Shown one piece after another: positions 45,740 to 57,867 of a stretch of 64,000 bases of DNA. The stretch comes from Paraflavitalea sp. CAU 1676 (GTDB lineage: Bacteria > Bacteroidota > Bacteroidia > Chitinophagales > Chitinophagaceae). The notes beneath the pieces are model-generated. The model was not told the origin of the DNA. It saw nothing but the letters and a program-made list of their open reading frames with translations, and searched no databases. The translations under genes and the position numbers were made by a program. Each line of letters begins with the position of its first letter. Position 1 is the first letter of the stretch. The DNA is taken from contig NZ_JARHUJ010000007.1 of the NCBI RefSeq assembly GCF_029223285.1, forward strand, positions 248,001 through 312,000, written 5' to 3'.

Positions 45740-46567
45740 CTATTGTCTGGCAAATAACACTTCCACCTGTCGCATCAGGTCGGCACATACCTGATCCTGG
45801 ATCTCGAAGATCTTGGCGGCCGACGCCCGGCACTCCAGCATCCGCGACCAGGTTTGTTGGGCAGTATTACAATTGATCATTTGCACATTTACACGTACTG
45901 TTTGTTGCAGGTGCTGTACACTGCCGGTGATAATATGATTGAAGTGCAGTACACTGCTCAGTTCTTTCAGGTCCATATTCCGCGTGGTCATACTTTTCAC
46001 CATCTGGTAACCCAAAACGGACACCTGCTGCATTTGAGACAACGCCGTGCAGATCTGCAAACAAAGCGTATCGCTGAAAGACCTGATCAACTCATTGCCC
46101 GAAACACAATGAAAGGGAAGAATAGCGAAGGTCACCGGTTCTTTGACTGAAGCAAAAGCATGATCGGAGATATCAGCCTGATGCCTCCTTTCCTGGAGCC
46201 ATTCGTGCCGGTCCATGAACACCGGAATATACTTACCCTTGGGCATTCCAATGATGATCTGGTCTTCGACACACATGTCGTTATAGTAGTGCGCCAGCGC
46301 TTTGCGGAGGCGGCCCGCATGAATGCGAACCACACAGTCTTTTTGGGGATTGAAAGTCGCAGGTTTTTCGAGCACTTTCAAAGCAATGGTATACTCCTTC
46401 AGCCAGTTGGCATTGCCCGTAAGGGTTTCCTTCACGACAAATGACAGGAACTTCCTCAGAATATGGGAATTGCTGAAATCGGGGTGTAGAAAGATCTTGT
46501 CGAGCTGCTGCTCGATGGCGCCCTCGGTAAACCTGGGGGAAGCCATAGTCGAAACGGCGGTGCCCAT
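45740..46567 (-). CDS. Winged-helix plus TolB/FlgO-like domain protein without TPR tail
   Basis: 275 residues, no signal peptide. Residues about 10-115 match the N-terminal domain of a class of bacterial TPR regulators: IEQQLDKIFLHPDFSNSHIL RKFLSFVVKETL, WLKEYTIALKVL, FNPQKDCVVRIHAGRLRKAL AHYY and GMPKGKYIPVF. Residues about 145-270 match the TolB-like/FlgO segment that follows it in those proteins (FAILPFHCVSGNELIRSFSD TLCLQICTAL, HFNHIITGSVQHLQQTVRVN VQMI, KIFEIQDQVCADLMRQVEVL). In relatives I recall, several TPRs come next; here the protein stops. It lies 115 bases behind the amidohydrolase gene on the same strand and may report on or regulate that operon (inference). Confidence 0.75.
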   Translation of the reverse strand: MGTAVSTMASPRFTEGAIEQQLDKIFLHPDFSNSHILRKFLSFVVKETLTGNANWLKEYTIALKVLEKPATFNPQKDCVVRIHAGRLRKALAHYYNDMCVEDQIIIGMPKGKYIPVFMDRHEWLQERRHQADISDHAFASVKEPVTFAILPFHCVSGNELIRSFSDTLCLQICTALSQMQQVSVLGYQMVKSMTTRNMDLKELSSVLHFNHIITGSVQHLQQTVRVNVQMINCNTAQQTWSRMLECRASAAKIFEIQDQVCADLMRQVEVLFARQ

Positions 46568-46682: not shown

Positions 46683-47744
46683 TCATTTATTTGCAGCCTC
46701 CCATTTCCTTACCTTGACCCTGGCTGCGTCGAACAGCCGGGCATAATTACCTTTCAGCAGGCTCTGTTTGGTAGCGGGCGAAAGTTCCTTGAACAACGGC
46801 TCGTACATATTGTACACCTTGAGGTACTTATCCTGCGTGGCGGGCGCCACTTCATCGGTCCCAAATAAGAACCTGTCTGGATATTTATTGATGATGGCTG
46901 CCGTTTCCCGGATGGTTTCGGGCGACGATATAATGTATTTCGCTACCTCATCCCAGGAGATATCGATGTGTACATGTTTGAGCGCCGGATCGGCCAGGGC
47001 ATACTCCACGATCGTTAGCTGTTCTTTCACTGGACGCACCACCCTGCCCAGCCCGCAATGCGCCCAGATAATGGTCGTATTGGGATGCCTGCGGAACAGA
47101 TCCGCCAATTGCGTTAACAAGTAGGGCTCCTGCCCTGCTTTCGGATAGGGCATATCGATATCATTGTGCAGCAATACCACCAGCCCCGTTTCGGCCGCAA
47201 AATCCAGGATGCGGTCCAAAGCCGGATTGATGAGGCTTGCAACCTCTCCTGCAATCTTAGACGAAACAAATTCTTTGTGGATCGTGAATTCACCGATACC
47301 GGTAAACACACCGGGAAAAGTTTTAAGTACCCGTTTGATGTGATCGGCGGCATACATATCGGCCGGATTGAAACCCGTGATCATCGGATCGAATCGTTGT
47401 TGCTCTTCTTTCGAGAGCGACCGGTATGCCATCGCAATAAAAGCATCCGTAAAAGAATAATAATACAAAGGAGCATCTGAAGCTAAATAATAAGTGGGTG
47501 CAAATTCGCCTGAATTACCGTGAGACCATTGTTGCTGAAGCGGTATACCAAACAGGGTAGACCGCCCCACTTTATCGCCCATCACTTTGAGAAATTGCTT
47601 CACGTCGAGGCCCTCCTGCACGTAATTGGTCAAATGAAAATGACTGTCATAAAACAGCGACTTGTCGGCCGAAGCTGGTTGTGCAGCAGACTGCTTTACA
47701 AACAGAAAGGCCAGCAACACTACGCCTGCAATATATCGCGACAT
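46683..47744 (-). CDS. Exported amidohydrolase-superfamily protein
   Basis: 353 residues with signal peptide MSRYIAGVVLLAFLFVKQSA. The metal-dependent TIM-barrel (amidohydrolase 2 type) is marked by DSHFHL (His35, His37), ITGFNPADMYAADHIKR, the HNDIDMP segment, TTIIWAHCGLGR (His ligand) and RFLFGTDE (catalytic Asp). Relatives hydrolyse amide, ester or C-C bonds; the substrate is unknown. It is the last gene of the exported glutaminase/asparaginase/aspartase operon, 15 bases after the third porin, so a nitrogen-containing or carboxylated substrate is a reasonable guess, such as an N-acyl amino acid. Confidence 0.85.
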   Translation of the reverse strand: MSRYIAGVVLLAFLFVKQSAAQPASADKSLFYDSHFHLTNYVQEGLDVKQFLKVMGDKVGRSTLFGIPLQQQWSHGNSGEFAPTYYLASDAPLYYYSFTDAFIAMAYRSLSKEEQQRFDPMITGFNPADMYAADHIKRVLKTFPGVFTGIGEFTIHKEFVSSKIAGEVASLINPALDRILDFAAETGLVVLLHNDIDMPYPKAGQEPYLLTQLADLFRRHPNTTIIWAHCGLGRVVRPVKEQLTIVEYALADPALKHVHIDISWDEVAKYIISSPETIRETAAIINKYPDRFLFGTDEVAPATQDKYLKVYNMYEPLFKELSPATKQSLLKGNYARLFDAARVKVRKWEAANK

Positions 47745-47759
47745 AACTGATTCATTTTT

Positions 47760-49091
47760 TTATAACAGAATATCAGCACCGATCGTAATCGTTGTGCCGG
47801 TTTGCCCGCTGGTATACAACCCAAACGTGCCGCCTGCGGAACTCTTGTACACATGGTGTAGCTGGGCATTGAGCCGCCAGCTTCTGGATTTCATAGGGTA
47901 TATATTCACACCGCCCCCTATTTCCCAGGGGTGGCGTTTGAACTCATCGAAGAAATAAGAGTGAAAGCCGTATAAGGCCAACACTTTGGGAACTACCATC
48001 TGCGAAGCCTGAATGCTATAACCCCGGTCACGGATGAAGTTGATGGGTACCGGACCATCCGCATCAAAGTCCGACAGCTGGCGTTCATACAACTCCACTT
48101 GCAGGTTGAACCCCTTGTACTTGAACCCAAGATCAATAGCGAGCATATCGTAATCTGCTTCCTGCACGGTAACGCCATCGGCCAACGCGCCGGTTTCGAA
48201 GAACAATACGCCATCAGTCATCCGCACCTGTGTATTGTCGGGCGAAGGCTGCCCCGTATTATTGAACCGGTTATCCCGGTCATGCGTAAAGTTGACACCA
48301 AAGCGGGTAGCCAGTTTCTGGTGTTTTTCAAAGTCACCCAATCCTCCTCGTGGGCCATATTCGCCCGTAGTAGGCATCCAGATGAGCCCAGCACCTTGAG
48401 AAAGGGTTCGCGTAAGTTTGGCAGCCTGCACACCCAGGGTGCTCAGGTTATTACCCAGCATCAAAATATAATTTAATCTCGGCACTACTTCCCCTTTCAG
48501 GAAAACACCGTTGGTAAAACCAGCCCGCAAGCTCTCCTCTCCCATAGTGCGGTCAGTAGAATTATAGAAGGGAAACGGCCCCTGCATAGACCGGATGGAG
48601 ATATTGGGCATGATACCCGCACCCACCGTAAAATATTTATTGAACCGGTATTGAAGGTTACCATATACCAGGGTTTGTTGAGTCGTCATTACCGTCCACA
48701 CGGTGGCGGTATAAGTCAGTTTGGGCGTCAGTACGAAACCAGAGAACCAGATCATGGCACGATGCCAGTGGAAATCATTCCGCCCGGTAAAGTCCCTGTT
48801 ACGGCCTAGATGATCCTGCCAGGTTTGTTCACCCGGCAATTGGTTCAGGTAGCGGACTATCGCATATAAACTGATATTGAGGGTTCCATATTTGGTCTTC
48901 ACCAGGCTAAAACCCTTACCGGGCGATAGCTCGCCGGCAGTTTCGTTACGGTATACGGAATCTCTCAGCGTTTTACTAATAGTATCCAACGCCTGTGCGT
49001 TCTGGTCGAGCTGGGCATGCAATTGGTTTACGCAAAACAGCATCCACATACATAGTCCCAAAGTCCTTAGTCCGGTCTCTATACGGATCAT
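47760..49091 (-). CDS. Outer-membrane porin, third of the operon
   Basis: 443 residues with signal peptide ending LHAQ (residue 27). Mature protein is a long barrel of alternating strands: GTLNISLYAIVRYLNQLPGE, FHWHRAMIWFSGFVLTPKLT YTATVWT, YRFNKYFTVGAGIMPNI and the closing strand TITIGADILL. The helical/charged pre-barrel segment (DQNAQALDTISKTLRDSVYR) resembles OprO/OprP-like porins. It sits between the glutaminase (33 bases) and the amidohydrolase (15 bases). Specificity cannot be read from sequence; amino acids or carboxylates are inferred from context. Confidence 0.82.
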   Translation of the reverse strand: MIRIETGLRTLGLCMWMLFCVNQLHAQLDQNAQALDTISKTLRDSVYRNETAGELSPGKGFSLVKTKYGTLNISLYAIVRYLNQLPGEQTWQDHLGRNRDFTGRNDFHWHRAMIWFSGFVLTPKLTYTATVWTVMTTQQTLVYGNLQYRFNKYFTVGAGIMPNISIRSMQGPFPFYNSTDRTMGEESLRAGFTNGVFLKGEVVPRLNYILMLGNNLSTLGVQAAKLTRTLSQGAGLIWMPTTGEYGPRGGLGDFEKHQKLATRFGVNFTHDRDNRFNNTGQPSPDNTQVRMTDGVLFFETGALADGVTVQEADYDMLAIDLGFKYKGFNLQVELYERQLSDFDADGPVPINFIRDRGYSIQASQMVVPKVLALYGFHSYFFDEFKRHPWEIGGGVNIYPMKSRSWRLNAQLHHVYKSSAGGTFGLYTSGQTGTTITIGADILL

Positions 49092-49124
49092 AACAGTATT
49101 GCTTAAGTTGAATGAATGCCCTGC

Positions 49125-50147
49125 TTATTTAGGTTGTACCAGGTAGGGGTTAGCTTTCAATTTATCGATCACATAACTAATGGCCTTCTGTGCTTTCACA
49201 CTATTACCGGCTGCATCGAGCGGAGGGGATACAACGGCGATGCCGAATTTGCCTGGACATACTGCCAGCAAACCACCCCCTACCCCACTCTTGGCGGGCA
49301 GTCCCGTATGGTACAGCCAGATACCGGAGTTATCATACAGTCCGGCAGTCGACATTACCGCCAGCGTGTGCATGACAGTTTCGGGCGAAACGATCTTCTT
49401 TTTGGAAACGGGATTCACGCCTCCATTGGCCAGCGTAGCCGCCATCGTAGCCAGGTCTTTGGCCGATACGTTTATGGCGCATTGCTTGGTATAGATATCG
49501 GTAGCCTGCACCGGATCGAAATACATACGGCCATAGGCCAGCAACAGGTGTGCGATAGCCTGATTGCGCAGGTTATCACCTGCTTCACTAATGTACACGG
49601 GTCCGTTTACCGTGAGGGGTCGTGCCGCAAAATCGCTATGCACCTGTAAAATGTTCCTCCATTTAGCTGCGGAATCGGCGCCGCTGATCAGACTCGACGA
49701 CGCGATGGCGCCCGGATTCACCAGCGGGTTGATCTCTTTACCTTTTTGCAGTTCCACCGCTACGATCGAGTTGAAGCGCATACCGGTGGCATCCACGCCA
49801 ATCTTATCCTGCACCGCCTGTGCCCCCTGTTCTTCGATCACCTTGGCCATCGTAAATACCTTTGACACGCTCTGTATGGACACCATAGACGTCACATCTC
49901 CTTTGGTATACACTTTCCCATCGGTGGTAATGAGGGCGATACCAAATATCTCAGGATCCACATTGGCGAGTTCCTTGATATAATCCGCATTCTTCCCCTC
50001 CTTCAGGTTTCGGAATTTATTATAGGCTTCATTCAGCGCGTCTTCGATCGCTTTGGGCGTCTGCGCCTGTGCGAACAGGCACAACGACAAAGCAGCTGAT
50101 AAAAGGAATAACCACAACCTGCTATGAGAACGGCTTGTTTGTTTCAT
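49125..50147 (-). CDS. glsA: Exported glutaminase (GlsA family)
   Basis: 340 residues from the ATG at 50147; another ATG three codons upstream is possible. Hydrolyses glutamine to glutamate and ammonia. MKQTSRSHSRLWLFLLSAAL SLCLFAQAQ is a clear signal peptide, unlike the usual cytosolic GlsA. The serine-hydrolase dyad Ser93-x-x-Lys96 is in SIQSVSKVF, and Asn144 in NPLVNPGAIAS, together with FNSIVAVEL, MYFDPVQATDIYTKQCAINV and the C-terminal KSGVGGGLLAVCPGKFGIAV VSPPLD, are family signatures. The 104-base gap upstream holds a CCGCC-GGTT-GGCGG hairpin without a T-run, possibly an mRNA-processing element. Confidence 0.95.
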   Translation of the reverse strand: MKQTSRSHSRLWLFLLSAALSLCLFAQAQTPKAIEDALNEAYNKFRNLKEGKNADYIKELANVDPEIFGIALITTDGKVYTKGDVTSMVSIQSVSKVFTMAKVIEEQGAQAVQDKIGVDATGMRFNSIVAVELQKGKEINPLVNPGAIASSSLISGADSAAKWRNILQVHSDFAARPLTVNGPVYISEAGDNLRNQAIAHLLLAYGRMYFDPVQATDIYTKQCAINVSAKDLATMAATLANGGVNPVSKKKIVSPETVMHTLAVMSTAGLYDNSGIWLYHTGLPAKSGVGGGLLAVCPGKFGIAVVSPPLDAAGNSVKAQKAISYVIDKLKANPYLVQPK

Positions 50148-50251
50148 AATAGTCATATTTATTATTGACGTTGCACTACGCTTGTTTAAACACAAGGTGC
50201 GGCATGGGTGAAGACACACGTCGCACGAACTTTCCGCCAACCGGCGGCAGA

Positions 50252-51562
50252 TCACATCACCGTAAGTTGGATACGGGTTTCGAAAAAACTGACATGCCCT
50301 TTGAGGTTGAAACGGTCCAGGGTGCCATATCCATAAGTAAGCTCCCAGCGCAGAAAACTGGTCAAATACCAGTTAAACATGGGCGTAATACGGGTAAACC
50401 GGCCTCCTTTGATCGAACGGTCATCGAGATTGAAGGTAGAAGCATGTAAAACGAACTCTATTTCACCCAATCCGCCCTTAAAGACCGACTTCTTAACCGG
50501 TACAAAACCATAAATGCTTCCTACCGTCTTGTAGGGCCGGCTTGTTTGGGTGAGGAAAAAACTGAACACCGCGTCGCCACCAAAAAATTTGTGATTCTCT
50601 CCATTGTCTGCGTAGAAATGATGCTGCATTACTTCAGAACCGATCATGAACCGGCCTTTATTGTAATAAATTTCGGCGCCGATGCTCGTAGACTTATCGG
50701 CTGCAAATGAACCAGTATTGATCAATTGAGGTGTGGGATTCGATTCTGGTCGCGATTTAATAGTAAACTTTCCATCGAGCGGCTTCCCATACCGCAGGTT
50801 GGCCGCTATATGCATCACCCCGGCTTTATCGGGGGCATTGAAAGGCATCCAGCCAATACGTGCATCATATTGCCAGGCAAAAGTGGAGAAACCTTGTCCC
50901 TTCGATATAAAGTCATTGTAAGCGCCCAGGTTCAGGAACAGGCGCGACTTGGGAAAATAGCCAAAGTATTTAATTCCATCTGCCAGAATGGGAATGGGAT
51001 CAAGGGCCATTTGCCGTTCATTGGTAAGTCCGGAGTGACCGTTCATGACCTTGATCATGGAAAACCCTTCTTTCGTGCGCCCTACAAAGAAGTATCCCTT
51101 CAATTCGGGCATGGAGAAAGTAAGACCCGTTTCCCGCACCATCCACACTTTTTCATCACCATCGTACATGAAAGCAAACTTCCAGGAAATATGCCGCCGG
51201 GTCTTCAAATACCGCCCGCTGGCCAGTATCCTGAAGTCGCGTGTCTGGTACCGGGGATCGAGTGAAATGTTGAGGGAGTCCATCTGCTGCTTGAACGTTG
51301 CGTTCTGCGAGTATGCGGTGAAGTCACCTATATAGCCCAACCCAACGCGGAATGTGGAGTACGTACCCGCGAATTCATTAGGCTCCAGCGCCTTCGTTTT
51401 ATTGACGAACGTACTGTCGGCCGCCCTGATCGGGAATACCAGGCCATCTGTTCCATTGGGTACAGTTCGTACGGTATCTTGTGCGTGTGCCCCAAGGGGA
51501 ATAGTCCATCCAATCATATACACTATTCCCCTCAGGCACATGGCTTCAAAGGCGCGGGCCAT
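50252..51562 (-). CDS. Outer-membrane porin, OprP-like, second of the operon
   Basis: 436 residues from the ATG at 51562; an ATG seven codons later (51541) gives a tighter signal peptide MCLRGIVYMIGWTIPLGAHA. The mature protein has the phosphate-selective-porin layout: FRVGLGYIGDFTAYSQNATF, FRILASGRYLKTRRHISWKF AFMYDGDE, GLTFSMPELKGYFFVGRTKE GFSM, later GAEIYYNKGRFMIGSEVMQH HFY and a final WELTYGYGTLDRFNLKG to TRIQLTV. Relatives carry phosphate or other anions. It begins 12 bases after the asparaginase stop codon, implying tight co-expression and a role in admitting Asn or related anions. Confidence 0.85.
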   Translation of the reverse strand: MARAFEAMCLRGIVYMIGWTIPLGAHAQDTVRTVPNGTDGLVFPIRAADSTFVNKTKALEPNEFAGTYSTFRVGLGYIGDFTAYSQNATFKQQMDSLNISLDPRYQTRDFRILASGRYLKTRRHISWKFAFMYDGDEKVWMVRETGLTFSMPELKGYFFVGRTKEGFSMIKVMNGHSGLTNERQMALDPIPILADGIKYFGYFPKSRLFLNLGAYNDFISKGQGFSTFAWQYDARIGWMPFNAPDKAGVMHIAANLRYGKPLDGKFTIKSRPESNPTPQLINTGSFAADKSTSIGAEIYYNKGRFMIGSEVMQHHFYADNGENHKFFGGDAVFSFFLTQTSRPYKTVGSIYGFVPVKKSVFKGGLGEIEFVLHASTFNLDDRSIKGGRFTRITPMFNWYLTSFLRWELTYGYGTLDRFNLKGHVSFFETRIQLTVM

Positions 51563-51574
51563 GCTTTGTTGGTA

Positions 51575-52621
51575 TCAATATTTGAAGAAATATTGTTGCA
51601 GCTGTTTCCGGTCTTTCGTATTCAAGAGCCCCAGCATGAGCATCACCCTGGCCTTTTGCGGCGTCAGATCATCCGACACAATGGTGCCTAACTCTTCGTC
51701 ATTGATCTCATCTTCCAGCACTACCCTGCCCGATGGCGTACGGCTGGCACGACAAACGATGATACCGGCACTCACTGCACGTTTAACAGCGTCCATATAG
51801 GCTTTATTAAAGTTCCCATTGCCAACACCGGCGATCACGATACCATCCACTTTTTTATCGATAAGTGTATTCAGCAGGTCCGGTGGCGCATCGGCATACA
51901 TATAAACAATGTCTACCCTTGGGAATTTGGTATTGGCTGTTACGGCGAAAGGTGTTTTTACATTTACCTCGCGCATGGAGGTCATGTAGTATTCAACCTT
52001 ACCATCATACACCTGGCCAATGGGGCCCGAGTTCGGAGAACCGAAAGCATTCACCTTGGTTGTACTTAGTTTCATCACCTCACGGGCATCAAAGATCCCT
52101 TCATTGAAACTGATCAACACACCACGCCCCTTCGACTTGGGACTCACCGCCACCGTAATAGCGTCATATAAATTTTTGGGGCCATCGGCGCTGATCGCCG
52201 TAGCGGGCCGCATAGAACCCGTGAGCACTACCGGCTTTGCATGGGCTACCACCAGGTCTAGGAAATAACCTGTTTCCTCTTGCGTATCGGTACCATGGGT
52301 TACCACAATTGCATCTGCTTCGTTCTTGGCAAATATTTCATTGGCGCGCACCGCCAGTTTTCTCCAAATATCGATCGTCATGTCCTGGCTGCCCACGGAA
52401 GCCACTTGCTCTCCTGTGATATCGGCAATCTTTTTCACCGCAGGGATGCCACCAATGAGGTCATCGATCGGTATTTTGCCGGCAGTATAACCAGCCCTGG
52501 TCGCCGAAGCACCGGCACCGGCGATAGTGCCACCCGTAGCCAGGATAATGACCCTGGGCAATTGGGCCAGTGCGCTGAATACAACAAATAGCAACACCGT
52601 TATGGAAAGTATTTTCTTCAT
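51575..52621 (-). CDS. ansB: Type II (periplasmic) L-asparaginase
   Basis: 348 residues with signal peptide MKKILSITVLLFVVFSALAQ. Converts asparagine to aspartate and ammonia; many type II enzymes also act on glutamine. Both active-site signatures are intact: ILATGGTIAGAG with nucleophile Thr32, and AIVVTHGTDTQEETGYF with Thr111-Asp112. GSMRPATAISADGPKNLYDA and GIVIAGVGNGN are further family motifs. It lies 20 bases after the aspartase and 12 before the next porin, so its product aspartate is placed next to an exported aspartase. Confidence 0.96.
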   Translation of the reverse strand: MKKILSITVLLFVVFSALAQLPRVIILATGGTIAGAGASATRAGYTAGKIPIDDLIGGIPAVKKIADITGEQVASVGSQDMTIDIWRKLAVRANEIFAKNEADAIVVTHGTDTQEETGYFLDLVVAHAKPVVLTGSMRPATAISADGPKNLYDAITVAVSPKSKGRGVLISFNEGIFDAREVMKLSTTKVNAFGSPNSGPIGQVYDGKVEYYMTSMREVNVKTPFAVTANTKFPRVDIVYMYADAPPDLLNTLIDKKVDGIVIAGVGNGNFNKAYMDAVKRAVSAGIIVCRASRTPSGRVVLEDEINDEELGTIVSDDLTPQKARVMLMLGLLNTKDRKQLQQYFFKY

Positions 52622-52641
52622 ATGAATGGCTTTAATGTAGG

Positions 52642-54120
52642 TTATTTCTTTTGTTGGTTGGTGGGTCCGGTCGGCGATGTCAGCTTAACAGGATCCAGCA
52701 GGTCCTTGATCTGCGCCTCTGTAAGCAGTTTCTTCTCCCGGATCAATTGTAAAATACCCTTGCCACTTTGCAACGCCTCTTTCGCCAGCTCAGTGGTCTT
52801 ATCATATCCCAATATTGGATTCAAAGCGGTCACGATGCCCACACTACGGTTCATATAGTCCTGCAACACTTTATCGTTGATCGTGATGCCTTCAATGCAC
52901 TGCGTTCTGAAAAGCGGCATCGTTTTAAAGAATAAACCTTGCGACTCCATGATACAAATTGCCACCACCGGCTCATAGGCATTCAGCTGCAGTAACCCAT
53001 CCTGCGAGGCCATCGTAACGGTGAGATCATTGCCTATAGCCTTAAAGCATATTTCATTCATCAGTTCAGGCATCACTGGGTTAACCTTGCCGGGCATAAT
53101 AGAAGAACCGGGTTGCAGCGCTGGCAGGTTGATCTCGAAAACACCGGCCCGCGGGCCCGTAGCCAGGAAGATCAGATCACTGCTGATCTTCGATAAAGCA
53201 ACCGCCAGGTTCTTCAACGCAGAGGAATACATTACAAAGCCCGCCATACTGGAAGTGGCCGCCACCAGGTCTTTGCTTAGCACCATGGGTTTACCAGTGA
53301 TCTGCGCCAGGTGTGCGGCACATTTTTCGGCATAGCCCGGCGAAGCCGTGATACCAGTACCAATAGCCGTAGCACCCATGTTCTCTTCATACAAATAGGC
53401 TTCCGTTTTAACCAACACGCCAATGGCAGCATCGAGCTGGTTGCCAAATCCATGAAATTCCTGCCCCACGGTCATCGGCACCGCATCCTGTCCTTCCGTG
53501 CGCCCCATCTTGAGCACCTTGCTGTATTGATCACCTTTCTTGTGAAAGGCCGCAGAGAGCGCTTTCGCTTCATTAACTACCTTATCGTTGTGTAATAACA
53601 AAGCAACCTTGATTGTCGTAGGATATACGTCGTTGGTAGATTGCCCCATATTGAGATCATCGTGCGGTTCTATCGAATGATAGTCGCCTTTCTTTTTACC
53701 CGATAACTCCAACGCAATATTGGCCAGCACTTCATTGGCATTCATGTTGGCCGAGGTGCCGGCACCACCCTGGTAAAGATCAACCAGGAACTGATCATGG
53801 TATTTGCCATCCATCACCGCCTTGCAGGCCTGCTCGATAGCTGCCAGTTTCTCTTTGCTGAGCCTGCCCACATCGGCGTTCGCCCGGGCAGCGGCCAGTT
53901 TCACCATGGCATATGCCCTCACATAGTCGGGATAAGAACTGGTGAGTTGTCCGCTCACCCGGAAATTCTCCAGTGCCCGGGCTGTTTGAACGCCATAGTA
54001 AGCGTCTGCCGGGATCTGCTTTTCACCCAGCAGGTCTTTTTCCGTCCTGGTGGCCTGGGCCTCCACGATGGTCACCAGGGCAATAGCCAGAGCCGTCAAC
54101 AAAAAGTATCTTTTTCTCAT
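52642..54120 (-). CDS. aspA: Aspartate ammonia-lyase with an N-terminal signal peptide
   Basis: 492 residues. Deaminates aspartate to fumarate. The first 22 residues, MRKRYFLLTALAIALVTIVE followed by AQ, are a textbook signal peptide placed exactly before the normal aspartase start (TRTEKDLLGEKQIPADAYYG VQT). Catalytic core is intact: GGAGTSANMNANEVLAN, DDLNMGQSTNDVYPTT, and the flexible-loop signature GSSIMPGKVNP (residues 338-348); GTEGQDAVPM-like KMGRTEGQDAVPMTVGQEF is aspartase-typical. Fumarase cannot be fully excluded, but context and motifs favour aspartase. The next internal ATG is at about residue 72, though a GTG at residue 19 could start a cytosolic form. It is 35 bases behind the DcaP-like porin and 20 ahead of the asparaginase. 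Confidence 0.93.
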   Translation of the reverse strand: MRKRYFLLTALAIALVTIVEAQATRTEKDLLGEKQIPADAYYGVQTARALENFRVSGQLTSSYPDYVRAYAMVKLAAARANADVGRLSKEKLAAIEQACKAVMDGKYHDQFLVDLYQGGAGTSANMNANEVLANIALELSGKKKGDYHSIEPHDDLNMGQSTNDVYPTTIKVALLLHNDKVVNEAKALSAAFHKKGDQYSKVLKMGRTEGQDAVPMTVGQEFHGFGNQLDAAIGVLVKTEAYLYEENMGATAIGTGITASPGYAEKCAAHLAQITGKPMVLSKDLVAATSSMAGFVMYSSALKNLAVALSKISSDLIFLATGPRAGVFEINLPALQPGSSIMPGKVNPVMPELMNEICFKAIGNDLTVTMASQDGLLQLNAYEPVVAICIMESQGLFFKTMPLFRTQCIEGITINDKVLQDYMNRSVGIVTALNPILGYDKTTELAKEALQSGKGILQLIREKKLLTEAQIKDLLDPVKLTSPTGPTNQQKK

Positions 54121-54155
54121 ATTGCGTATTTATGTTCGTGAAAGAAAAACAGCCA

Positions 54156-55364
54156 CTAATCATTGTTCTTGTAGAAGACCTGCGAGAAATTATATTTGAA
54201 GCCAAACTGGATCTTCACCGCTTCGGAGCTAAATCCATCAGAAAAGTTTTCGCGCTTGCCGTATTGTAATTCGGCAGCTACCATGATATTCTTATAGGGC
54301 GTAACAACGAGGTTTACAAGTGCATAGTGACCCTTTCTGTAAGCATTCGGAGACCCATAGTCGGTATTATCGATATCGACACTCGAATATCCGATCGTAC
54401 TGGATAGTTTATCGTTCCAGGTATGATCGAGAAAGGCCAGGATCCCGGTAACCGGGAGTGCTTTACCCGAGGCTGGTTTGGTAGGACTATTTTGATTAAT
54501 GATGATACCAACGTCAACAGGAGCATCCTGCATATAGTTTTGTATCCCTTCGCCGTACACGAACGATCCGCGGAATATATCTTTTTTACCGAGGTTCAGC
54601 ACGGTACTGAGGTTGAGCCCCCAACCGGTAGTACTACCGCTGATATCATAGCCACCGGTCGTATGTATATCTTCCCACTTAAGGAAGCGCAGCATACCGG
54701 CCAACTGCACATGTCCCCAATCTCCCGTACGCTTCCAGTGGGCCGAAAAATCGGGCAAATAATTACGTCCTTTCACACTATCCAGCTCCGTGCGATCGGC
54801 GAAGGTGCCCAGGTCGGCACTGGCGCCCGGACGTTCCAAAGCAATAAACACCTCATTTTTTCCTTTCAGAGGCGCAAAGCGTAACTGGACATTCCGGAAG
54901 AACACCATTCCCGACGGCCCCCAATATTCGATCGAGTTCGGCCATACATCTCCGTCCATAAAGGGAGAGTTTGCCTGTCCTACCAACACAGGGCCAATCT
55001 CTCCGTATGCATTTCGTAGCCGCATGGTGGTTTGACCTTCGTCGGGTCCTACGCCAAACAGGTCAAATTCGAAGTTGGTCTTTAATTCACCCAGCGGTGT
55101 CTGCGTCCAGCCCCTCACACCAAACCTGGTTTGCCTTACCCCAAAGAAAACCGTACCGTCAGGGGCAAACTGATTCTTGTAACTGGGAAGGCGCGTAATG
55201 CGCATCGCATCAAACCAATTGGGGTTGATCTGATCGAAATTGTAGCCGATGTCGGCCATGGCAAATCCATACACTTCCAACACCCTTTGCTTCGACTCGT
55301 CCTGGGCTTGCCCCTTCATAACGCCCACCAATAAAAATAGAGATAGTAAATAAGTGCATTTCAT
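54156..55364 (-). CDS. DcaP-like outer-membrane porin, first gene of the exported deamidase operon
   Basis: 402 residues from the ATG at 55364 (another ATG three codons upstream). MKCTYLLSLFLLVGVMKGQA precedes Q, a signal peptide. The pattern VLEVYGFAMADIGYNFDQIN, FFGVRQTRFGVRGWTQTPLG ELKTNFEFDLFG, TTMRLRNAYGEIGPVLVGQA NSPFMD and IEYWGPSGMVFFRNVQLRF is that of DcaP-type trimeric porins, whose characterised members take up dicarboxylates. That fits a neighbouring enzyme that makes fumarate and consumes aspartate. The barrel ends in VKIQFGFKYNF followed by a short polar extension. Confidence 0.88.
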   Translation of the reverse strand: MKCTYLLSLFLLVGVMKGQAQDESKQRVLEVYGFAMADIGYNFDQINPNWFDAMRITRLPSYKNQFAPDGTVFFGVRQTRFGVRGWTQTPLGELKTNFEFDLFGVGPDEGQTTMRLRNAYGEIGPVLVGQANSPFMDGDVWPNSIEYWGPSGMVFFRNVQLRFAPLKGKNEVFIALERPGASADLGTFADRTELDSVKGRNYLPDFSAHWKRTGDWGHVQLAGMLRFLKWEDIHTTGGYDISGSTTGWGLNLSTVLNLGKKDIFRGSFVYGEGIQNYMQDAPVDVGIIINQNSPTKPASGKALPVTGILAFLDHTWNDKLSSTIGYSSVDIDNTDYGSPNAYRKGHYALVNLVVTPYKNIMVAAELQYGKRENFSDGFSSEAVKIQFGFKYNFSQVFYKNND

Positions 55365-55524: not shown

Positions 55525-56550
55525 ATGAAGCATACATGTTTACTCGTACTCCTGGTGTTATGCATGATTGGTACTAACGCGCAGAAGATCAAGGATACGC
55601 TGTACTTTTTGAATGGCAGTAAAGTGATCGGTGAAATAAAGCGGATCAAGCTAGGCGTCATCATTTTCGATCCGGACGACGCCAATGACATCACCGTGCA
55701 GTTGCAAAAAGTCAAAACGCTGGCCGCTTTGATGAAGGTATTCAGGATCGAGACAACAGGCCACACGGTCTATTTCGGCAAAATGATCCCTGCCAACCTG
55801 CCCGGCTATGCCACCATTGCCACCACCATGGATTCAACCCTTTATCCAATAGAACAAATCTCCCTGCTATATGCCTATCGCAGCACTTTCCGGCAACGAT
55901 TTGATGGCAAGGTCGCCGGGGGGTTCGACTATACCCGTACGAGTGGACTGGGCCGCATCAACTTCGATGGCACTATCAACTATGTAGCGAAGAAAACAGA
56001 ACTCACGATCGCTTCTTCGGGTATCTATACGCTCACCGATTCTACCCTTAGCCGGGACCGGGAAGACATGAGCCTCAAGGCGAATTATTACTTCAACACC
56101 ACCTGGTTCAGCACCGCATTTCTCAAATACCAGCGCAACCTCGAACTGGGCCTAAAACGGCGCTACCAGGAAGGCCTCGGCGCCGGCAATAAATTCATCA
56201 CCAGCAAGCACGTGTATGCCTGGTCGAGAGTCGGTGGTGTCGTCAACCAGGAGGTTAGTACAGACGATGTAAAGTCCGGAACACTCGTGGAACTGTTTGG
56301 TCAGTTCGAGTTCAATTTCTTTCGCTTTACCAAACCCGAGATCAGTATCAGCCTGGCAGAATCAGTTTATTATAGCTTGTCACAAAGCGGACGCGTGCGC
56401 AATGATGCGCAACTCACCATCAGTTGGGAGATTATAAAAGATCTCGACCTGTCGCTGAGCGCTTATACCAATTTCGACAGCCAGCCCCAAACAGCTGAAA
56501 GCAAGAAATTCGACTTTGGTACCGTATTCAGCATTGGTTACTCATTCTGA
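55525..56550 (+). CDS. DUF481-family outer-membrane protein
   Basis: 341 residues with signal peptide ending GTNAQ. Residues about 22-110 form a small beta-rich periplasmic domain starting KIKDTLYFLNGSKVIGEIKR IKLG, a common SH3-like start in this family. The rest is the DUF481 barrel: VAGGFDYTRTSGLGRINFDG, TINYVAKKTELTIASSGIYT, NYYFNTTWFSTAFLKYQRN, LGAGNKFITSKHVYAWSRVG, and the closing strand FGTVFSIGYSF. Function unknown for the family. Divergent from the aspartase operon with a 160-base shared upstream region. Confidence 0.88.
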   Translation: MKHTCLLVLLVLCMIGTNAQKIKDTLYFLNGSKVIGEIKRIKLGVIIFDPDDANDITVQLQKVKTLAALMKVFRIETTGHTVYFGKMIPANLPGYATIATTMDSTLYPIEQISLLYAYRSTFRQRFDGKVAGGFDYTRTSGLGRINFDGTINYVAKKTELTIASSGIYTLTDSTLSRDREDMSLKANYYFNTTWFSTAFLKYQRNLELGLKRRYQEGLGAGNKFITSKHVYAWSRVGGVVNQEVSTDDVKSGTLVELFGQFEFNFFRFTKPEISISLAESVYYSLSQSGRVRNDAQLTISWEIIKDLDLSLSAYTNFDSQPQTAESKKFDFGTVFSIGYSF

Positions 56551-56745: not shown

Positions 56746-57867
56746 ATGGCTAAAAAACAGATCGTCCTGACGATCCTGGGTATAGGACTGGCCTTGTGCA
56801 GCAGCGCGCAGGTTACTACCGATAAGGTATTGGGGCCTAAACATGAAGTGCTGATCGACAGCCTTAAACACACTACCTATCCCTACCTGCTGCCCATCTG
56901 GGGTCAAAAAGTAAAGAATAAGGGATTCAGTATGCCCCTGCCGGTCGGCGCGAGCGTTCAGTACCTCTGGCAGGAGTCGGATATTATCATCAATAACCTG
57001 CAGGTGGGTTTCAACCATGGGCCCATGTACAATATGGACGATATTGTACGTATCGAAAATGCGGTCACCACCACCAATGGCTACAATTTCCGGCCCGATT
57101 TCTATGTATTCCCATTCCTCAACGTATACGGGATACTGGCGAAATCCAAGACATCCACGGCCATCGATGCCGGTCTATGGATTCCCGATAGCAGCTCATC
57201 GTGGAAAAAGATATCTGACTTTAGCACCAAGGCCGACTTCAATGCCACTACCATGGGCTTTGGACTAACCCCCATGATAGGTGTCGGTGGCTTTTTCTTT
57301 ACATTAGATATGAACTTCTCCTGGTCCGATATCGATGAGCTGGAAAAACCGGCCTATGTGTTTGTACTGGGGCCGCGACTCGGGAAAAATATCCGGTTGA
57401 AAAAAGAAAGGTCCATCGCCCTCTGGGCAGGCGGCTTTCGCGTGCACATGAAGAGCGGCACCACCGGTTCGCTCAACGTGGGCGAACTCCTGCCGGTAGC
57501 CGAGTGGCAACAAAAGGTCAGTGGTGCGCAGCAAAAAGTTGGTGAAGCACAGGGACAGGTAGACACCTGGTGGGCCGACCTCACCCCCACCGAGCAAAAG
57601 AACCCGGTCAATATAGCGAAGCACGAAGCGGCGAATGCAGCCCTCACCAAAACAGGTCAGGTCCTCAACAGTGTATCACAGGCCGTTAACTCAGCTGGCG
57701 ACGCAACGGTTCAATACTCCCTAGAAAAGAAGCCAAAAGACAAATGGAATTTTATACTGGGATCGCAGTTCCAGTTAACCAACAACTGGATGCTGAGAGT
57801 GGAGTATGGCTTCCTCAGCAGCCGCCATCAATTGATAGCAGGCTTACAATACCGGTTTGGGTTTTAA
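56746..57867 (+). CDS. Outer-membrane barrel protein with a helical insertion
   Basis: 373 residues with signal peptide MAKKQIVLTILGIGLALCSS AQ. Strands include FSMPLPVGASVQYLWQESDI, YNFRPDFYVFPFLNVYGILA, VGGFFFTLDMNFSWSDI, FVLGPRLGKNIRLKKERSIA LWAGGFRVH and the C-terminal HQLIAGLQYRFGF. Residues about 247-325 interrupt the barrel with an Ala/Gln/Lys-rich helical segment (AEWQQKVSGAQQKVGEAQGQ, then AKHEAANAALTKTGQVLNSV), probably a helical hairpin in a surface loop. Family not recognised by name. It stands 195 bases after the DUF481 gene. Confidence 0.8.
   Translation: MAKKQIVLTILGIGLALCSSAQVTTDKVLGPKHEVLIDSLKHTTYPYLLPIWGQKVKNKGFSMPLPVGASVQYLWQESDIIINNLQVGFNHGPMYNMDDIVRIENAVTTTNGYNFRPDFYVFPFLNVYGILAKSKTSTAIDAGLWIPDSSSSWKKISDFSTKADFNATTMGFGLTPMIGVGGFFFTLDMNFSWSDIDELEKPAYVFVLGPRLGKNIRLKKERSIALWAGGFRVHMKSGTTGSLNVGELLPVAEWQQKVSGAQQKVGEAQGQVDTWWADLTPTEQKNPVNIAKHEAANAALTKTGQVLNSVSQAVNSAGDATVQYSLEKKPKDKWNFILGSQFQLTNNWMLRVEYGFLSSRHQLIAGLQYRFGF

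Follow-up and report, generated by a model that had tools for sequence, protein, structure and literature searches.

A predicted extracytoplasmic deamination pathway for glutamine, asparagine, and aspartate in a porin-enzyme gene cluster of Paraflavitalea sp. CAU 1676

RESULTS

Layout of the cluster

The window analyzed here, 64,000 nucleotides of Paraflavitalea sp. CAU 1676 (contig NZ_JARHUJ010000007.1, positions 248,001 to 312,000), contains a cluster of seven minus-strand genes between positions 46683 and 55364 of the window. A first-pass annotation had described them as closely spaced genes for periplasmic deamination of glutamine, asparagine, and aspartate. All seven open reading frames (ORFs) were confirmed. 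The intergenic gaps were 35, 20, 12, 95, 33, and 15 bases, as annotated except for the fourth, which became 95 rather than 104 bases because the start of the glutaminase was placed at 50156. Families were assigned by Pfam and NCBIfam searches, with bit scores read against family cut-offs. Signal peptides were called with a crude home-made scorer under a start rule that favored a signal peptide and was applied alike to exported proteins and to the comparison group. With this scorer, Sec-type signal peptides were predicted at all seven starts (scores of 3.1 to 4.9), as had been claimed. The genes are as follows.

54156..55364, minus strand: DcaP-family outer-membrane porin with a signal peptide (PF19577, 75 bits; cut-off, 27)
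52642..54120, minus strand: aspartate ammonia-lyase (aspartase), predicted to be exported, with Glu209 at the amine-contacting position (Lyase_1 and PRK12273)
51575..52621, minus strand: type II L-asparaginase, predicted to be exported (TIGR00520, 405 bits; cut-off, 314; signal peptide)
50252..51562, minus strand: Porin_O_P-family outer-membrane porin (PF07396, 57 bits; cut-off, 20.9; signal peptide)
49125..50156, minus strand: glutaminase A (glsA), predicted to be exported (PRK12356, 438 bits; cut-off, 395; signal peptide)
47760..49091, minus strand: gene 6, encoding a probable beta-barrel of the outer membrane and associated with glsA and amh (signal peptide, porin-like composition)
46683..47744, minus strand: Amidohydro_2 protein (amh), a TIM-barrel metal-dependent enzyme, predicted to be exported (PF04909, 60 bits)

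The cluster thus encodes four enzymes; the "fifth enzyme" of the annotation does not exist. The lyase matched PF00206 (Lyase_1) at 288 bits, PF10415 (FumaraseC_C) at 67 bits, and the aspartate ammonia-lyase model NF008909/PRK12273 at 640 bits (cut-off, 510), but fell short of the cut-off set for TIGR00839, the aspA equivalog (597 versus 681). Its predicted signal peptide is MRKRYFLLTALAIALVTIVEA. The asparaginase passed the type II model and carries a signal peptide; it scored 418 bits against the equivalog NF008304, under the cut-off of 506, and its best PDB match was the L-asparaginase 1wsa. The glutaminase also exceeded the cut-off of TIGR03814 (337 versus 255 bits). Promoter and terminator counts at the cluster were not above those of shuffled sequence and so gave no limits for a transcript. 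A search of Rfam gave no match.

Exported aspartases form a single clade

Searching genome contigs with the window aspartase as the query yielded 79 loci, to which further loci were added from genome searches (all designated by L numbers below). ORFs scoring more than 600 bits to the window aspartase were defined as exported type (n = 54, including the window's own). Signal peptides were predicted for 53 of the 54, the lowest score being 2.7; the remaining ORF, in L040, is divided between two frames, and its upstream piece has a signal peptide. The split gene (L040:2118-3848) reflects either a sequencing error or a broken gene. Among 41 other lyase ORFs, 31 had no signal peptide, 7 had no readable start in range, and 3 were flagged weakly (1.8 to 2.2), 2 of these at a TTG start inside a longer protein.

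The aspartase tree, built by a quick method, comprised 92 of 94 aligned rows, after removal of L072, a duplicate, and L040, which is short. A branch with a support of 100 separated all 52 exported rows from the rest, although several long branches occurred elsewhere in the tree. By this phylogeny the exported aspartases are a single clade. The window aspartase was placed beside that of Niastella soli, another member of the Chitinophagaceae (support, 87). By record title, the clade spans Bacteroidota, Acidobacteriota, Calditrichota, Krumholzibacteriota, and Latescibacterota; the rows from outside Bacteroidota are metagenome bins, whose labels can be wrong.

Two unusual arrangements were seen during the survey. 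In L011 (6464-9383), a signal-less aspartase gene and an exported one stand in tandem, with genes for asparaginase, Dcu, and a porin after them. In L104 (8732-10606), a scan showed an aspartase fused to an N-terminal cyclic-nucleotide-binding domain, and L105 (about 629 amino acids) has the same architecture by likeness; these fusions are possibly aspartases controlled by cAMP.

Asparaginase, porin, and carrier genes adjoin exported aspartases

Linkage was assessed in the 41 exported loci where the aspartase is flanked by 2.5 kb or more in both directions, the window excluded, and in 26 non-exported loci with the same flanks. An asparaginase gene lay within 2.5 kb in 39/41 exported loci versus 2/26 non-exported loci, and a porin of the three types searched lay within 3 kb in 33/41 versus 0/26. 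A Dcu carrier was found within 2.5 kb in 21/41 exported and 1/26 non-exported loci; counting DASS carriers as well, the figures were 25/41 and 1/26, DASS being found in 0/26 of the latter. The two non-exported loci with an asparaginase are from Bacillaceae (L053 and L057; 75 and 83 bits to the window asparaginase), and the one with Dcu is the cytosolic aspA of the Paraflavitalea genome itself (L110). When no flank filter was applied, 46 of 53 exported loci contained an asparaginase. NCBIfam models identified the carriers as Dcu in L023, L011, L042, L017, and L094, as DASS in L021, and as an aspartate-alanine antiporter in L100; malic enzyme was present in L094 and L100.

Signal peptides were predicted for 47/47 readable asparaginase ORFs (48 rows), 10/10 glutaminase ORFs, and, among the 19 amidohydrolase rows, 17/18 readable ORFs, the miss being L034, which begins at the locus edge; these counts include the window copies and some duplicates. 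The annotation had proposed looking elsewhere for adjacency of signal-peptide aspartases, asparaginases, and porins, and this adjacency was borne out. By the linkage to asparaginase, carrier, and porin genes, an exported route from asparagine through aspartate to fumarate, its activities predicted from families, is a conserved unit.

The exported asparaginases beside the aspartase clade fell into two score groups, about 320 to 410 and 470 to 670 bits (cut-off ORFs aside), as if one group had replaced the other beside the same aspartases.

The glutaminase module

The genes glsA, gene 6, and amh occur together in the window and in L006, L007, L021, L022, L039, L095, and L100/L101, with gene 6 homologues sitting between glsA and amh in the relatives. 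L036 has glsA and amh without a gene 6 match, and in L034 amh lies at the locus edge. DcaP homologues adjoin either exported aspA or glsA: DcaP heads the glsA-por3-amh module in L021, L022, L039, and L101 and the aspartase module in L024, L029, and L096-L098. Since DcaP accompanies either module, the cluster in the window has the appearance of two modules joined into a single run. The pairing of each enzyme with a porin in a fixed order, as first proposed, was rejected, because order, porin number, and the partner of DcaP vary among relatives.

Whether the two modules belong together was examined in 395 Bacteroidota genomes drawn evenly from the phylum. Matches to amh of more than 480 bits, a line set after the list had been seen, occurred in 3 genomes from three families, all among the 7 with an exported-type aspartase (hypergeometric p = 3.4e-6); with all 7 amh matches counted (3 more at 408 to 418 bits and one at 120 bits), 3/7 coincided with an exported aspartase (p = 1.2e-4), and both p values ignore shared ancestry. 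One of the 408- to 418-bit matches was scanned and proved to be fused to another domain. The inclusion of a glutaminase arm in the set therefore holds in part: amh co-occurs with exported aspartases, but among 36 exported loci with 5-kb flanks glsA lay within 6 kb in only 6. The 30 loci without it, together with L022, L039, and L100/L101, where the modules are apart or divergent, favor the view that aspA-ansB-porin and glsA-por3-amh are independent modules that merely stand side by side, the second serving glutamine-related compounds in some other way. Given the coincidence with exported aspartases in all three genomes of the even draw that have amh above 480 bits, we regard this as rather unlikely, though it is the strongest of the alternatives.

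Of the three porins annotated, the DcaP and Porin_O_P proteins were assigned to their families; the porin nature of the third, gene 6, is unproven. Searches of Pfam and the PDB returned nothing for gene 6, and its structure model was poor (pLDDT, 38). Its product has no cysteine past the first 25 residues and contains 10.5% glycine and 12.7% aromatic residues (9.7 to 10.9% and 14.1 to 15.8%, respectively, in the assigned porins), and it is probably an outer-membrane beta-barrel by composition. When the gene 6 profile was compared with those of the DcaP and Porin_O_P families, no match resulted; these two families do not match each other either, and the comparison is therefore without power.

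In amh, the residues HxH, Glu, His, His, and Asp were invariant in 6/6 aligned sequences, and the predicted model (pLDDT, 70) has the TIM barrel with HxH, His, His, and Asp metal ligands typical of Amidohydro_2/ACMSD-like proteins. A fold search returned, at a TM score of about 0.5, unassigned amidohydrolases, decarboxylases including ACMSD, and hydrolases of 2-pyrone-4,6-dicarboxylate. Sequence searches of the PDB gave nothing useful. Because the ACMSD/LigI group holds both decarboxylases and hydrolases, the name amidohydrolase should not be read as a reaction. For the suggested action on acylated amino acids, no evidence was found. A PADLOC defense search matched neither amh nor the regulator-like gene described below, and a plasmid search with amh gave one weak match, from Rhodococcus (28.8% identity). 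Elsewhere, near genes of efflux type, an amh homologue carries a fused 3-keto-disaccharide hydrolase domain (L107:8885-10726; L106 and L108 by likeness); neither a glutaminase nor an exported aspartase was matched in L106-L108.

Active site of the exported aspartases

The motif GRTE was found in 54/54 exported aspartase ORFs (alignment of 94 rows). Of the other 40 rows, 25 had Gln and 10 had His in the column of its glutamate; the 5 with Glu were distant sequences of less than 340 bits. Glu is therefore fixed in the exported clade but not unique to it. Gln or His in this column is the norm among the rows seen, though the family does not formally demand it. From the RT-H motif in the Bacillaceae rows, we equate the column with His188 of AspB, which is reported to belong to the carboxylate pocket and to interact with the amine (PMC11744663).

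A replacement at the amine contact in all 54 sequences means that the substrate could differ. The exported lyase might use another amino-dicarboxylate, such as a substituted, N-linked, or D-form aspartate, and the score below the aspA equivalog cut-off agrees with this; a dicarboxylate would still be released outside the inner membrane. Such a change of substrate appears improbable, since the SS-loop GSSIMPGKVNP and the other substrate motifs looked at are kept and the neighboring asparaginase, by its family, makes L-aspartate. By family, then, the exported enzyme is an aspartase in which one position of the amine site is systematically altered; L-aspartate is its putative substrate.

Distribution and genomic context

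Exported-type aspartases are rare: they were found in 2/149 genomes of the order, in 1/5 of the genus (the window's own), and in 7/395 of the phylum. In the even draw, exported-type matches scored 669 bits or more, and the other 4 of 11 matches (536 to 542 bits) belonged to the non-exported group; scoring was limited to 3 candidates per genome, and a few may thus have escaped. This patchy presence with kept neighbors would fit horizontal transfer.

In the Paraflavitalea genome (8.84 Mb in 23 contigs), asparaginase and glutaminase were each matched once, both times inside the cluster. A second aspartase, without a signal peptide, is encoded immediately upstream of the genome's only Dcu gene, which it overlaps by 4 bases (G000:C12). 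The exported aspartase is therefore an addition to this pair, not a replacement. Other possible carriers encoded in the genome are two SDF proteins and one DASS protein.

Three flanking genes were considered as candidate partners.

45740..46567, minus strand: regulator-like gene, candidate regulator (FlgO match below the cut-off; homologues near exported aspA)
55525..56550, plus strand: divergent DUF481 protein with a signal peptide, candidate partner (PF04338, 55 bits)
56746..57867, plus strand: divergent conserved protein, outer-membrane barrel-like, with a signal peptide, candidate partner

No signal peptide was called for the regulator-like protein, which has one other paralogue in the genome; its gene could be transcribed with the cluster or separately. 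Homologues occurred in seven exported-aspartase loci, at 332 bits in L022 and 265 bits in L080; in L024, L029, and L096-L098, the matches were weak (115 to 129 bits) and joined only part of the gene to longer proteins near the cluster. Homologues of the DUF481 protein were found in L022 (461 bits), L038 (134 bits), and L019 and L020 (73 to 75 bits). The protein at 56746-57867 had homologues of 429 to 550 bits in 7/53 exported loci (L022, L025, L027, L034, L095, L014, and L017), an additional match cut off at the edge of L018, and none in non-exported loci at an E value of 1e-5; barrel-family matches to these homologues were below the cut-off or absent. Both divergent proteins may be further outer-membrane parts of the system.

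DISCUSSION

We propose, with a probability of roughly 0.75, that the cluster specifies an extracytoplasmic deamination pathway for glutamine, asparagine, and aspartate. The proposal draws on the enzyme families, the signal peptides, the conserved linkage, and the single aspartase clade; the periplasmic location, the activities, the substrate of the lyase, the cargo of the porins, the uptake of fumarate and ammonia, and co-transcription are what we infer from them. The porins would admit amino acids through the outer membrane. In the periplasm, glutaminase would convert glutamine to glutamate, asparaginase would convert asparagine to aspartate, and the exported aspartase would convert aspartate to fumarate, each step yielding ammonia. 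Fumarate, along with aspartate and glutamate, would then cross the inner membrane through dicarboxylate or amino-acid carriers such as Dcu and DASS, which are encoded within the cluster in many relatives and elsewhere in the Paraflavitalea genome.

Several observations weigh against this proposal. No carrier gene is present in the window's own cluster. The well-flanked exported aspartases in L041 and L060 have no asparaginase in reach. The loci were gathered mainly with the window aspartase as bait, and the linkage counts therefore favor close relatives; moreover, L072 and L099 seem to be one record, L013 and L014 share a bin, and so do L010, L018, and L040. To these must be added the Glu in place of Gln or His at the amine-contacting position of every exported aspartase and the limits on the amh co-occurrence given above.

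The purpose of the pathway can also be read differently. All three reactions, as predicted from their families, would release ammonia outside the inner membrane, and a role in pH has been discussed for a related cluster of Actinobacillus succinogenes (PMC10634366). The chief benefit would then be neutralization of acid, or depriving neighbors of asparagine and glutamine, rather than feeding. We consider this quite improbable, as the dicarboxylate carriers and malic enzyme in the clusters of relatives point to the use of carbon. Scarcely credible is the idea that the signal peptides go unused and the enzymes remain cytoplasmic: all the calls come from the home-made scorer, but the predicted signal peptides track the clade boundary, and the N termini diverge yet keep the pattern of charged, hydrophobic, and small residues.

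Extending the proposed pathway beyond this genome gives a picture for which we see even odds. A secreted aspartase clade of single origin, present in at least five phyla, would have moved horizontally as an island of porins, enzymes, and carriers. Asparagine would be deaminated to a dicarboxylate in the periplasm (and glutamine to glutamate where glutaminase is present), fumarate and ammonia would be taken up rather than amino acids, and the amine site would have been retuned from Gln or His to Glu for work outside the cytoplasm. If the secreted clade does act in the periplasm, cells could separate amino-acid nitrogen from C4 carbon ahead of import, and the modeling of such Bacteroidota as ammonifiers and consumers of asparagine would change accordingly. 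The exported system has a clear sequence signature, a signal peptide plus the RTE motif, and the clade may supply secretable aspartases for enzymology.

Aspartase is generally known as cytoplasmic. In the Bacillus ansAB operon, an asparaginase gene adjoins an aspartase gene; the cluster described here shares that adjacency, whereas the Bacillaceae aspartases of L053 and L057 carry no flagged signal peptide. Titles and abstract openings in the open-licence literature searched held no description of an exported aspartase. In the Escherichia coli aspA-dcuA pair, as recounted in PMC10634366, a shuttle of aspartate and fumarate supplies nitrogen as ammonia from aspartate; that aspartase is cytoplasmic, and the Paraflavitalea genome has an equivalent pair besides the exported enzyme. 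Pseudomonas has a periplasmic glutaminase-asparaginase, AnsB, with uptake through AatJQMP and other carriers (PMC7962211). The two systems are alike in the deamidation of glutamine in the periplasm, predicted here, followed by uptake of acidic amino acids, but the accessible part of that paper describes no exported aspartase, which the present cluster is predicted to have.

The closest described system that we found is AnsB-AspA-DcuA of A. succinogenes (Asuc_0140-0142), in which asparagine is converted to aspartate and then to fumarate, with roles in nitrogen supply and pH discussed (PMC10634366). As in relatives of the window's cluster, asparaginase II, aspartase, and Dcu are encoded together there; the Paraflavitalea cluster itself lacks the carrier, Dcu being present in the 21 of 41 relatives counted above. 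In A. succinogenes, aspartate is imported first and the aspartase is drawn as cytoplasmic, whereas the aspartase here has a predicted signal peptide and shares its cluster with porins and a glutaminase. Judged by its gene content and predicted signal peptides, the Paraflavitalea cluster is a variant of the AnsB-AspA-DcuA pathway in which the lyase step is placed outside the inner membrane and a glutaminase arm is added.

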